NCBI GenBank assembly: GCA_947585865.1
Contig: CANPXH010000001.1
Location: forward strand, 1-64,000
Source: an uncultured Clostridia bacterium
GTDB lineage: Bacteria > Bacillota > Clostridia > Lachnospirales > CAG-274
Length of the DNA: 64,000 nt
Direction of reading: 5' to 3'
Shown here: piece by piece, positions 40,678-44,573 of the stretch
Numbering within the stretch: position 1 is the stretch's first letter
Layout of the letters: each line of letters opens with the position of its first letter
Position numbers and translations under genes: made by a program
The notes under the pieces: generated by a model
Told to the model about the DNA's origin: nothing
Database searches by the model: none
What the model saw: the letters and a program-made list of their open reading frames with translations, nothing else

Positions 40678-41540
40678 TTCAATCTATCCTTTTTGTTGCT
40701 TATGATAAACAATATAAGTGCGAACCATACAAATACAAAGGTCATTATATCGGATAACGCAAGACTTTCATTGTATAATATTACACCGACCAAAAATTGC
40801 AGCGTTGGATTTATGTACATAAGTATACCCGAAAGAGACATAGATATGTTCTTTATACCCGATGCAAAGAAAAGCAGCGGAACAGACGTCACAACACCCG
40901 AAAGCGGCAAAAGAACATAGTTCAGCCCTCTTAGATTGCCTATAGCTCCCATCCCCTTGTATTCAAACAGCAATATGCCTATAAGCGCAAAGGGTACGAC
41001 TGCAAGAGTCTCTGTGAAATTAGACGCTTCGCTGCTTATATCTATCTTTTTCTTAAAGGCGGAATACAGCGAAAAAGACCCGCCTATTATAAGGGCAATA
41101 TAAGGTATGGAAGCCTCACGTATCACAGGGATAAGTATACCCATAAAAGCTGTTGCAACGGCGATCCATTGAAGTACATTGAGCTTTTCTCTGTATATTA
41201 TAAAACCAAGCAATATACTTATGATAGGGTTTATAAAATATGCAAGGCTGGCATCGAGCACATGGCCGGTATTTACAGCCCAAATATATGAACCCCAGTT
41301 TATTGTAAGGAAAATGCCGCATACGGCAAGGTGAATAAAAAGCCTTGTATCTTTGAGTATATTTTTGATAACGTATACTTCTTTTTTAAGGCAAAGTATG
41401 ATAAAGCAGAATATAAGAGCCCATACTATCCTGGAACAAAGTATATATACGGGATCAAGATCGCTCATAAGCTTCCAGTATATGGGAAGGAGACCCCAAA
41501 GTACATAGCACATAGAAACATAAAAAGCGGATCTTTTCAT
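40674..41540 (-). CDS. rarD: EamA/RarD-family transporter
   Basis: 288 residues with ten predicted TM segments and a double EamA domain; YVLWGLLPIYWKLMSDLDPVYILCSRIVWALI at the start is diagnostic of RarD. Members are drug/metabolite-superfamily exporters of poorly known substrate. It overlaps pth upstream and mfd downstream by ATGA on each side, so the three are tightly coupled. A transporter between these two housekeeping genes is unusual. Confidence 0.92.
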   Translation of the reverse strand: MKRSAFYVSMCYVLWGLLPIYWKLMSDLDPVYILCSRIVWALIFCFIILCLKKEVYVIKNILKDTRLFIHLAVCGIFLTINWGSYIWAVNTGHVLDASLAYFINPIISILLGFIIYREKLNVLQWIAVATAFMGILIPVIREASIPYIALIIGGSFSLYSAFKKKIDISSEASNFTETLAVVPFALIGILLFEYKGMGAIGNLRGLNYVLLPLSGVVTSVPLLFFASGIKNISMSLSGILMYINPTLQFLVGVILYNESLALSDIMTFVFVWFALILFIISNKKDRLK

Positions 41541-42136
41541 TGCTCATCCTCCGAAGTCTGTTTTCCTTGGCCTCTTTTGTTATATTTATTCATTGCTTCG
41601 GCAGTATCATTTTGTTTTACTATCATGGCTATGGCGTCACCTGCATCGGTAATGCCCTTAATAATGCCGTCATGCTCTTCCTCTGTAAATTTGCTAAGAA
41701 CATATTTGGCAAGATCCCATTTGTCCGGCTTTTGGCCTATGCCTACTCTTACCCTGGTAAAATTATCGTAGCCAAGCTGATACATTATGCTTCTTAAGCC
41801 CTTTTGCCCGCCGTCGCTGCCCTTTTTCCTTATGCGTATACCGCCCACCGGCAAATTGATATCATCACATACAACTATTATATCTTCAGGCTCCAGTTTG
41901 TAAAATGATACAAATTCCCTGACAGATTCTCCGCTCAGATTCATAAATGTAAGGGGCTGAATAAGCATGACCTTTTCAAAGCCCATATGTCCTTCCCCTA
42001 CCACAGCTCTGAATTTTTCCTTATTCATATCAATATTATAATCGTAGGCAAGCTTGTTTATGACCTCAAAACCTACATTATGCCTTGTCCAGGCGTAATC
42101 TCTGCCCGGATTGCCCAAACCGACTATGGCCTTCAT
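41537..42136 (-). CDS. pth: Peptidyl-tRNA hydrolase
   Basis: Releases tRNA from peptidyl-tRNA that drops off ribosomes. The 199-residue protein has the usual MKAIVGLGNPGRDYAWTRHNVGFEVI start, with catalytic His in TRHNVGF (about residue 20), PLTFMNLSGESV, CDDINLPVGGIRIRKKGSDGGQKGLRSI and GIGQKP. The ATG is preceded by GGAAGTGA. Its promoter lies beyond the 152-bp repeat, so the leader is about 180 bases. Confidence 0.95.
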   Translation of the reverse strand: MKAIVGLGNPGRDYAWTRHNVGFEVINKLAYDYNIDMNKEKFRAVVGEGHMGFEKVMLIQPLTFMNLSGESVREFVSFYKLEPEDIIVVCDDINLPVGGIRIRKKGSDGGQKGLRSIMYQLGYDNFTRVRVGIGQKPDKWDLAKYVLSKFTEEEHDGIIKGITDAGDAIAMIVKQNDTAEAMNKYNKRGQGKQTSEDEQ

Positions 42137-42169: not shown

Positions 42170-42321
42170 AGTCAAGGATATTCGTACTACGCTTACGCTA
42201 CGTACTCATAACCGACGGCTTTTACCAAAGCCTTTGTATTCAGCAGGAGCTTGTACCCCTGCTGAATACAAAAGTAAGTACTCGCCGCTTATAGAAGCGG
42301 GAGACTTACCCGTCGGTTAAA
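42170..42321 (+). repeat. 152-bp structured repeat, copy 1
   Basis: Nearly identical to 44422-44573 (151 of 152 bases). Outer arms ACCGACGG (42211-42218) and CCGTCGGT (42310-42317) close a multibranch fold: hairpin GGCTTT/AAAGCC (42217-42232), a perfect 15-bp hairpin (42233-42247 with 42258-42272) and a composite hairpin with GTAAGT/ACTTAC (42274-42279, 42304-42309), CTC/GAG and CCGCTT/AAGCGG (42285-42300). A GTAC-rich segment precedes it. Palindrome density and the position as a free-standing intergenic unit suggest a miniature element or structured RNA. IS200/IS605 ends or omega RNAs look similar in style, but no transposase is nearby. Confidence 0.9.
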
Positions 42322-42349
42322 GTATAACACAAAAAACATATTTTTACAA
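42321..42349 (-). promoter_or_regulatory. Promoter of pth-rarD-mfd abutting the 152-bp repeat
   Basis: On the minus strand TTGTAA (42344-42349), 17 bases, then TATACT (42321-42326), preceded by TG (extended -10). Its first base is the last base of the repeat, so transcription would start inside the repeat and carry nearly all of it as leader RNA. Confidence 0.65.
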
Positions 42350-42406
42350 ATATATAGGCGTATTTTTATTATAATTGAAATATTCAGCTCCATTTTCATA
42401 TTAATA

Positions 42407-42435
42407 TTGAAAAAAATTTAAAATTAGGGTATAGT
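42407..42435 (+). promoter_or_regulatory. Sigma-A promoter of rqcH
   Basis: TTGAAA (42407-42412), 17 bases, then TATAGT (42430-42435), 37 bases before the start codon. Confidence 0.75.
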
Positions 42436-42471
42436 TATATAAGAACATTTTTACCTACGGAGGTCATAAAT

Positions 42472-44229
42472 ATGGCATTTGACGGTGTTACTGTATCAGC
42501 ACTTGTTTCGGAAATAAAAAATAAAGTCATAGGTGGGAGAATAGACAAGATATATCAGCCCGAAGGCGATGAGATAATACTTAGTATAAGAAGCTTTGGC
42601 AAAGCCTATAAGCTGCTGCTTACCGCCAACCCTTCCAACCCTAAGTTCCATTTTACAAATATCAGCAAGGACAATCCTCCTGAACCGCCTTTGTTTTGTA
42701 TGGTTATGCGAAAGCATTTGCAAGGCGGAAAAATAATCGATATAGAGCAGCCGAATTTTGACAGGATGATCAACATATATGTGGAATCTCTTAATGAAAT
42801 GGGCGATCATTCCGTTAAAAAGCTTATAATGGAAATAATGGGGCGGCACAGCAACATTATACTTACAGACAGCGACGGCACCATATTGGACTGTATCAAA
42901 CATATAACTCACGATAAAAGCTCTGTAAGAGAGGTATTGCCGGGCAAAAAATATGAGATGCCGCCTAAGCAGGATAAAATAAACACTCTTATGCTGGACA
43001 AAGACAACTTTTTTACAGTGGTCAAAAACAACGGTGCAAAAAAAATACAAGCCCTTATATATCAAAGCTATACCGGCATAAGCCCAATAATGGCAACAGA
43101 GATATGTACAAGAGCCGGCACAGACGGCTCGGACTTTGCCGAAACGCTGTCAAGCGAAAAGATCGACAGGCTTTATACGGAATTTAAAAAAATAGTTGAC
43201 GATATAGGCAGTGAAAATTTTTATCCTTGCATTATCAAGGATGATAAGGGCAATATCATCGATCTCTTCCCTATAAAGCCAAGCTTTGGGAATATTGAAA
43301 AATACGAGAGTATGTCCGCCCTTACCGAGGATTTTTACAAAACAAGGGATCTCACATACAGAATAAATCAGAAAACGCAGGATCTAAAGAAGCTTATAAA
43401 CCAAAATATAGAGCGCTGCATAAAGAAAAAGGAAATACAGCTCAAGACTCTCAAGGATATTGAAAACAGGAACGAGCTTAGGCTGTACGGTGAACTTATA
43501 ACGGCAAATATATATTCCGTAAAAAAAGGTATGACCCTTGTTAAGCTTGTGAATTTTTATTCGGAAAACGGTGAAGAGATAGAAATAGAACTTGACGGCG
43601 ATCTTACTCCCGCCGAAAATGCTCAAAAATATTTTAAAGCCTACAACAAAGCAAAAAGGACTTATAATGCCATACAAGAACAGATAATATCCAATAATGA
43701 AGAACTCGCCTATCTTGAAGGCGTGTTGACATCAGTGAACAACTGCATAACGGAACAGGATATAAGGGAAATAAGGCAAGAATTGCGAGATGAAGGATAT
43801 ATCAAAAAGGTGAAGGCTCAAAAAGGAAAAGCTTCAAAGAAAAGATCATCTCCTATGCACTTTATTTCATCTGACGGCTATGATATATATGTAGGCAAAA
43901 ATAATGTGCAAAACGATGAGCTTACACTGCATTTTGCCAAGCCAAGAGATATGTGGTTCCATACCAAAACGATCCCGGGCTCTCACGTCATAGTAGTGAA
44001 CAAGGGCGAAGCTATACCCGACAGCACGCTGAATGAGGCGGCAATGCTGTCTGCCTATTTCAGCAAGGCAAGAAATTCTGCTATGGTGCCTGTAGACTAT
44101 ACAGAGAAAAGAAATGTCAAAAAGCCCAATGGCGCCAAGCCCGGAATGGTCATATATGAAACCAACAAAACAGCTTATATGACCCCTTCCGAAGAGGATA
44201 TCAATAAAATAAAAAGGATAGATCAATAA
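42472..44229 (+). CDS. rqcH: NFACT-family protein RqcH (fibronectin-binding protein A homologue)
   Basis: Ribosome quality control factor that binds stalled 50S subunits and adds alanine tails. 585 residues: NFACT-N domain at the start (MAFDGVTVSALVSEIKNKVIGGRIDKIYQPEGDEI), helix-hairpin-helix and coiled-coil regions in the middle (about 270-420), and the NFACT-R domain at the end (YVGKNNVQNDELTLHFAKPRDMWFHTKTIPGSHVI). Many databases call this fibronectin-binding protein. RBS GGAGGT. It lies exactly between the two 152-bp repeats. Confidence 0.94.
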   Translation: MAFDGVTVSALVSEIKNKVIGGRIDKIYQPEGDEIILSIRSFGKAYKLLLTANPSNPKFHFTNISKDNPPEPPLFCMVMRKHLQGGKIIDIEQPNFDRMINIYVESLNEMGDHSVKKLIMEIMGRHSNIILTDSDGTILDCIKHITHDKSSVREVLPGKKYEMPPKQDKINTLMLDKDNFFTVVKNNGAKKIQALIYQSYTGISPIMATEICTRAGTDGSDFAETLSSEKIDRLYTEFKKIVDDIGSENFYPCIIKDDKGNIIDLFPIKPSFGNIEKYESMSALTEDFYKTRDLTYRINQKTQDLKKLINQNIERCIKKKEIQLKTLKDIENRNELRLYGELITANIYSVKKGMTLVKLVNFYSENGEEIEIELDGDLTPAENAQKYFKAYNKAKRTYNAIQEQIISNNEELAYLEGVLTSVNNCITEQDIREIRQELRDEGYIKKVKAQKGKASKKRSSPMHFISSDGYDIYVGKNNVQNDELTLHFAKPRDMWFHTKTIPGSHVIVVNKGEAIPDSTLNEAAMLSAYFSKARNSAMVPVDYTEKRNVKKPNGAKPGMVIYETNKTAYMTPSEEDINKIKRIDQ

Positions 44230-44384
44230 AGAACAAATTATCTGACGTGTCAAGCCTATGCTTTGTATGCGGCAGCATCTCATCATCCCGATGTTTCCGC
44301 ATTTCGGAAAGTCCATATGGCCGACGATCGATATATGTTCTCTGTATTCTTTATATCGTGATAACAGAAGTGTCTTATAATATA

Positions 44385-44421
44385 AAAAGGACTGTCTATT
44401 TGGATATGACAGTCCTTTTTT
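44385..44421 (+). terminator. Rho-independent terminator of rqcH
   Basis: AAAGGACTGTC pairs with GACAGTCCTTT, followed by a T-run. The 152-bp repeat starts at the very next base. Confidence 0.9.
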
Positions 44422-44573
44422 AGTCAAGGATATTCGTACTACGCTTACGCTACGTACTCATAACCGACGGCTTTTACCAAAGCCTTTGTATTCAGCAGGA
44501 GCTTGTACCCTTGCTGAATACAAAAGTAAGTACTCGCCGCTTATAGAAGCGGGAGACTTACCCGTCGGTTAAA
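44422..44573 (+). repeat. 152-bp structured repeat, copy 2
   Basis: Same orientation as copy 1, offset by 2252 bases. The only difference is T at 44511 against C at 42259; in the 15-bp hairpin this turns a G-C pair into G-U, so the fold is preserved. It begins right after the rqcH terminator and ends 8 bases before the stop codon of the convergent nucleoside kinase gene. Confidence 0.9.

Follow-up and report, generated by a model that had tools for sequence, protein, structure and literature searches.

The two 152-nt repeats that flank rqcH in the window (the whole stretch of 64,000 nucleotides analysed here, from an uncultured Clostridia bacterium) are members of a large, previously unnamed mobile family of gut Clostridia that carries no genes. 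This family is real, mobile and uncharacterised. The explanation that we regard as probable, with some reserve, is that of a short non-autonomous element transposed, much like IS200/IS605, in the form of folded single-stranded DNA by an enzyme acting in trans. For gut Clostridia, this adds a large uncharacterised mobile family with base-exact insertion rules and a fold backed by covariation, and because these rules and this fold are defined while the mover is missing, a concrete enzyme hunt becomes possible. The family also gives a starting point for understanding Clostridiales-1. This candidate RNA was listed in 2010 with no function assigned, and a hairpin resembling its core lies here at the end of a mobile element.

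Comparison of the two direct copies (42170-42321 and 44422-44573, 152 nt each) bears out the initial annotation, which had described same-orientation repeats with sharp ends and a single difference: the sole mismatch changes G-C into G-U on the + strand of a 15-bp hairpin. Empty sites place the element proper within 146 of the 152 nt, at 42171-42316 and 44423-44568. The final five bases of each repeat, TTAAA (TTTAA on the - strand), are the retained target, and the first A is a host base that both copies have in common by chance. The components of the copies and the neighbouring host genes are as follows.

41537..42136, - strand: pth (peptidyl-tRNA hydrolase; Pfam PF01195, E 8.4e-68), host gene beside copy 1, outside the element
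42171..42316, - strand: element copy 1, 146 nt, CCGACGG...CTTGAC; boundaries from the empty sites of other copies, with a covariance model match at 42171-42321
42171..42175, - strand: right end of copy 1, TTGAC
42184..42205, - strand: right-end hairpin of copy 1, GTAC GTA GC GTAA GC GTA GTAC (- strand) between ATGAG and CGAAT
42209..42319, - strand: cloverleaf of copy 1, closed by stem P1 (42312-42319 with 42209-42216), from folds and covariation
42217..42232, - strand: hairpin 3 of copy 1, GGCTTT/AAAGCC
42233..42272, - strand: hairpin 2 of copy 1, 15-bp stem, site of the only difference between the window copies
42274..42309, - strand: hairpin 1 of copy 1, near the left end, GTAAGT/ACTTAC stem and an upper G+C stem
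42317..42321, - strand: TTTAA target kept at the 5' (left) end of copy 1 as read on the - strand; the same motif stands at most sites surveyed and was already there in an empty site
42472..44229, + strand: rqcH (NFACT family; Pfam PF05833, E 6.5e-159), host gene between the copies, outside the element
44423..44568, - strand: element copy 2, 146 nt, one base unlike copy 1, adjoining the rqcH terminator
44569..44573, - strand: retained target TTTAA of copy 2

Copy 1 lies between the divergently oriented pth and rqcH, and copy 2 between the rqcH terminator and an opposite-strand gene of the uridine kinase family. A promoter-like site at 42321-42349 (- strand; TTGTAA, a spacing of 17, and TATACT with TG) reaches as far as the copy 1 target; this copy may therefore be located in the 5' untranslated region of pth.

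Mobility is documented by three comparisons of filled and empty sites, two of whose empty sites are paralogues rather than the same locus in a sister strain; in each the insertion is clean and neither duplicates nor removes host bases, the inserted length being 146 nt, or 157 nt in one distant copy. From these we conclude that the window element measures 146 nt and entered 3' of TTTAA without any gain or loss of host bases. A copy in a relative (G003) interrupts an IS1182-like transposase gene that has an intact 93% homologue in the genome of the window (G000); the empty site reads TTTCA / TTGAATAACTG and the filled one TTTCA-element-TTAAATAACTG, one target base differing between the homologues. 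Contigs 1 and 33 of G000 share a flank that is empty as AATATAAA / TTAAAATAAAG and filled as AATATGAA-element-TTAAAATAAAG, the difference being exactly the element. Lastly, a 134-aa open frame reappears in G203 once a 157-nt relative is taken out, the cut running from just behind TTTAA through TTGAC; the 113 aa scanned from this frame match ArsC (Pfam E 6.7e-7).

TTTAA stands directly 5' of the element (- strand) at 58 of 62 sites, a count in which the last two target bases are fixed by the method, the site finder having required an AA-containing motif. The right end is TTGAC or near it, the following base on the host side is T at 32 of the 62 sites, and direct repeats at the edges of these sites occur at chance level. 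Copies have no consistent gene context or direction. A palindromic target was rejected (permutation p 0.26), as was a preference for terminators when compared with intergenic TTTAA controls.

The initial annotation had noticed two copies and proposed searching the genome and its relatives, where many more were found. In G000, 36 matching pieces reduce to about 25 copies, full or partial and spread over many contigs, once self-complementary matches inside copies are taken out; four copies elsewhere in this genome are identical to one another, which indicates recent spread. Sequence matches occur in 25 of 61 relative genomes, all of the same bacterial family, and a covariance model built from 19 diverse copies located copies in 29 of 48 genomes of that family, with a maximum of at least 63 per genome, as well as in 18 further genomes of four other families (f4, f6, f17 and f22) within a 295-genome sample of the order. 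Carriers outside the bacterial family include single-contig genomes. The named carriers are metagenome-assembled Clostridia, with bins from the guts of rabbit (isolates named Lapin), deer, sheep and goat; human gut contigs also hold relatives of the element, many of them degenerate. Many assembly breaks fall inside or beside a copy in DFJD and JAGAHK contigs (L190, L195, L199, L211, L215), and since contigs often break at or next to copies, metagenome copy numbers are probably underestimated.

Phage, plasmid and viral collections searched with the window copy gave no match. With the G203 version, matches appear in 13 contigs from human gut that carry a phage label (Bacteriophage sp.; MT835578, MT838429 and 11 other records), and the ten of them that were read contain truncated or small copies and no autonomous element. 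Several of the records with this label, which hold relatives in full or in part, resemble bacterial chromosome more than phage. A viral scan with a short motif returned 70 loci, probably mostly by chance.

Some variation in size was also observed. A frequent variant of ~219 nt is enlarged by ~60 bases in the loop region of hairpin 2 (L153, L190, L205, L213, L222 and others), and hairpin 1 of some copies (G000:C13:240-440, which is L020; L047; G003:C6:41830-42036) contains a second small palindromic repeat with the core GGTCGC/GCGACC or GGCCGGTC/GACCGGCC. On contig 12 of G000 (L024, 1015-2676 and 7693-8640), two frames, one BlaR1-like and one histidine-kinase-like, apparently take their last residues and stop codon from copies.

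The element folds into a four-way cloverleaf, in which a closing stem, P1, surrounds three hairpins, followed by the right-end hairpin and TTGAC. Folded as DNA, the - strand reaches -43.5 kcal/mol (z -10 against shuffles), and the + strand folded as RNA reaches -63.7 kcal/mol (z -8.8 against shuffles). All six helices covary: when the alignment is built without using structure, both sides are changed in 22 of 49 pairs, giving 86 double-changed cells against 30 in shuffles, a count attained by 0 of 500 shuffles and compared with at most 21 cells in slid controls. Judged by these counts and shuffles, the hairpins are kept by compensatory changes across the family. Distant relatives in other families retain the same structural plan with different letters, P1 occurring as CCGAC/GTCGG, CCAAC/GTTGG, CGGAC/GTCCG, CCGAAT/ATTCGG, CCTAAC/GTTAGG and others. 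Of 18 diverse copies, 16 have complementary P1 arms, the foot of which is nearly always TAA/TTA, and the other two folded without P1. The three outermost P1 pairs join a TAA with a TTA of the element, and because this TAA is host sequence, base pairing at the foot of P1 is a possible means of choosing the target.

The initial annotation had taken the single G-C to G-U change as a sign that an RNA fold is under selection. One change is too thin an argument by itself; the fold it pointed to is now strongly supported by the covariation, but the RNA part of the argument did not hold, as wobble-type changes are equal on the two strands across the family (41 G.T versus 43 A.C cells). This equality fits a fold of DNA and favours an RNA on neither strand. 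The suggestion of an undescribed structured family stands, the window copies having no Rfam match at gathering score.

Clean insertion 3' of a fixed 5-mer, the lack of duplication, the unlike end letters and the subterminal hairpins together argue for a working of IS200/IS605 type. ISDra2 inserts 3' of TTGAT and IS608 3' of TTAC, without duplication, and the IS608 site is selected by guide/target pairing (PMC8612924, PMC5934647). By analogy, the - strand of our element would fold when single-stranded, for example on the lagging-strand template, and a tyrosine HUH enzyme of the Y1 kind would cut after TTTAA and after TTGAC and join the element ends; the resulting circle would then be inserted behind another TTTAA. 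Target choice could be aided at the foot of P1, where host TAA pairs with element TTA, much as it is by guide/target pairing in IS608. The - strand is the G-rich strand for 14 of 16 copies in G000 and 14 of 17 in G018, and this joint bias (28/33) matches the expectation for insertion into the lagging-strand template; however, the figure in G067 is 10 of 21, and GC skew is confounded with gene direction, which makes the strand bias weak evidence.

Like IS200/IS605 and its non-autonomous derivatives (PATEs), the element lies 3' of a short fixed target retained at its left flank, and it also resembles IS200/IS605 in the absence of target duplication; its end hairpins, and its strand preference in two genomes, may be further likenesses. 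It differs from them in having neither tnpA nor tnpB nor an autonomous relative sharing its ends, and in a cloverleaf that fills the whole element. Moreover, the subterminal hairpins covary at both ends but the left is unlike the right, whereas those of IS608 are alike (PMC7290912). The early proposal of a miniature IS200/IS605-like element agrees with how the element inserts (three comparisons, 5-nt target, no duplication, end hairpins); among the loci fetched, no enzyme of that family was found with these ends.

None of the Y1_Tnp loci fetched has these element ends, and none of the TnpB loci fetched from relatives holds a copy; accordingly, the full element with tnpB and shared ends that the initial annotation had proposed to look for is absent from the loci fetched. 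A TnpB zinc-ribbon search of G000 gave no match, and among the loci searched no element with these ends encodes a protein. In six genomes with 18 to 63 copies (G007, G011, G028, G029, G031, G036), nothing exceeds the Y1_Tnp threshold, and a relaxed E-value brings up only weak fragments. Y1 genes do not track copy number, being present in 7 of 14 genomes with at least 10 copies and in 13 of 19 with none; G000 itself has a single Y1 gene, of IS200 type and with other ends. Judged by ends shared with a Y1-encoding element, membership in IS200/IS605 would not follow from the Y1 loci fetched. Draft assemblies can hide a multi-copy transposase gene, so the absence of Y1 is not proof. Two candidate long elements, L242 (1.4 kb) and one on contig C12 of G000, turned out to be pairs of separate degenerate copies.

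The same mobile family could instead be moved by an enzyme other than a Y1 HUH transposase, namely an undescribed recombinase or HUH protein, possibly chromosomal. The copies are indeed unexplained by any Y1 or IS91-type gene, and the elements searched encode no protein of their own; yet a fixed 5' target, no duplication, differing ends and subterminal hairpins are what Y1 enzymes produce, and a multi-copy transposase gene may be missing from the draft metagenome assemblies that represent many of the hosts. We consider this reading rather unlikely. A similarly modest chance is given to a cloverleaf DNA class of its own, mobile and widespread in Clostridia, which would choose TTTAA via its own closing stem and be moved by something outside the known Y1, Y2, serine and DDE enzymes, with Clostridiales-1 as a relative or a sharer of the hairpin. 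Among the established enzymes, IS91-type elements are rejected on the presence of a Y2 transposase in just 1 of 48 genomes, with no Y2 gene found that bears these ends, and the serine recombinase of IS607 on the lack of a common dinucleotide core, the left flank ending in AA and the element in AC. An ordinary MITE of a DDE transposase would be short, multi-copy and gene-less as well, but the element has no terminal inverted repeats, edge repeats at chance level and clean empty sites, and with neither inverted repeats nor target duplication this reading is refuted and retains a negligible probability. REP/REPIN sequences (TnpA-REP, RAYT) are likewise short folded DNA repeats with many intergenic copies, thought to move in trans; they differ from our element in fold and size and in the GTAG-type end tag, which it lacks, and no RAYT-type gene was found in G000.

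Other readings place the function in an RNA. Spread of a structured RNA through an RNA intermediate, by reverse splicing or reverse transcription, would suit the RNA-like cloverleaf with its strong covariation and the right-end hairpin in common with the candidate RNA Clostridiales-1; we hold it to be improbable, however, as wobble changes show no strand preference, there is no group I or II match at Rfam gathering score, and neither poly-A nor duplication accompanies the copies. Self-splicing introns are not known to be as small as 146 nt. A stand-alone omega-type guide RNA or a remnant of a TnpB/IscB element, as the initial annotation had also suggested, shares with the IS1341 and omega RNA systems a structured right-end region (~150 nt) and is compatible with IS200/IS605-like insertion. 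Unlike those systems, however, the element inserts as a complete unit that includes a left end of its own, and since this end is the same in every lineage, the copies are whole elements and not remnants; with no TnpB in G000, none beside a copy in the relatives' TnpB loci, no strand preference of wobble changes and no match to HEARO or any other Rfam family at gathering score, the omega reading is largely refuted for the window and keeps a very small probability. A duplicated host regulatory RNA or attenuator would account for folded intergenic copies, at times in 5' or 3' untranslated regions, but copies are inserted in transposase, ArsC-like and other genes, with inconsistent gene context and direction; as a full account it is refuted by the empty sites, and we give it next to no weight.

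Returning to the DNA element moved in trans, its right-end hairpin connects it with Clostridiales-1 (RF01699), which has been listed as a probable RNA that is not cis-regulatory (PMC2864571). RF01699 scores 31-34 bits (E ~2e-4 to 1e-3) on copies of one lineage, below its gathering score of 48 bits, and no other Rfam family was matched, whether the searches used gathering scores or E-values. On the - strand, the aligned region spans hairpin 3 and the right-end hairpin, and the letters common to the element and Clostridiales-1 are ATGAG, G-AGC, GCGGA and CGAAT. A joint pattern occurs in 18 of 35 element copies, 12 of 30 Clostridiales-1 loci and nowhere in 399 kb of other loci, counts that are descriptive because the pattern was drawn from the same two sets. 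Clostridiales-1 is itself a dispersed repeat, present in 56 of 295 genomes and in many of them as multiple copies. The two thus have in common the right-end hairpin (in one lineage also the preceding GCTTGC-loop hairpin) and dispersal in the same order, but differ in the rest of the structure, and in place of a TTTAA target, many of the Clostridiales-1 loci bear terminal stems whose sequence is particular to the locus. Their relation may be one of descent or of a shared recognition hairpin.

The terminal stems of Clostridiales-1 (L163, L164, L162, L177, L184 and others) have complementary arms that differ between loci (mean score 9.0 versus 5.9 for mismatched pairs, 0/5000 permutations) and often overlap the apparent stop codon of the preceding gene. 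At L275-L290 (G283, G261), Clostridiales-1 lies inside a ~190-nt element with inverted ends, ATGACGTAAGG..GTCAAAAG / ATGAGGTAGGTGTCAAAAG, and target duplications of 4-5 bp, that is, a classic MITE carrying an Rfam RNA.
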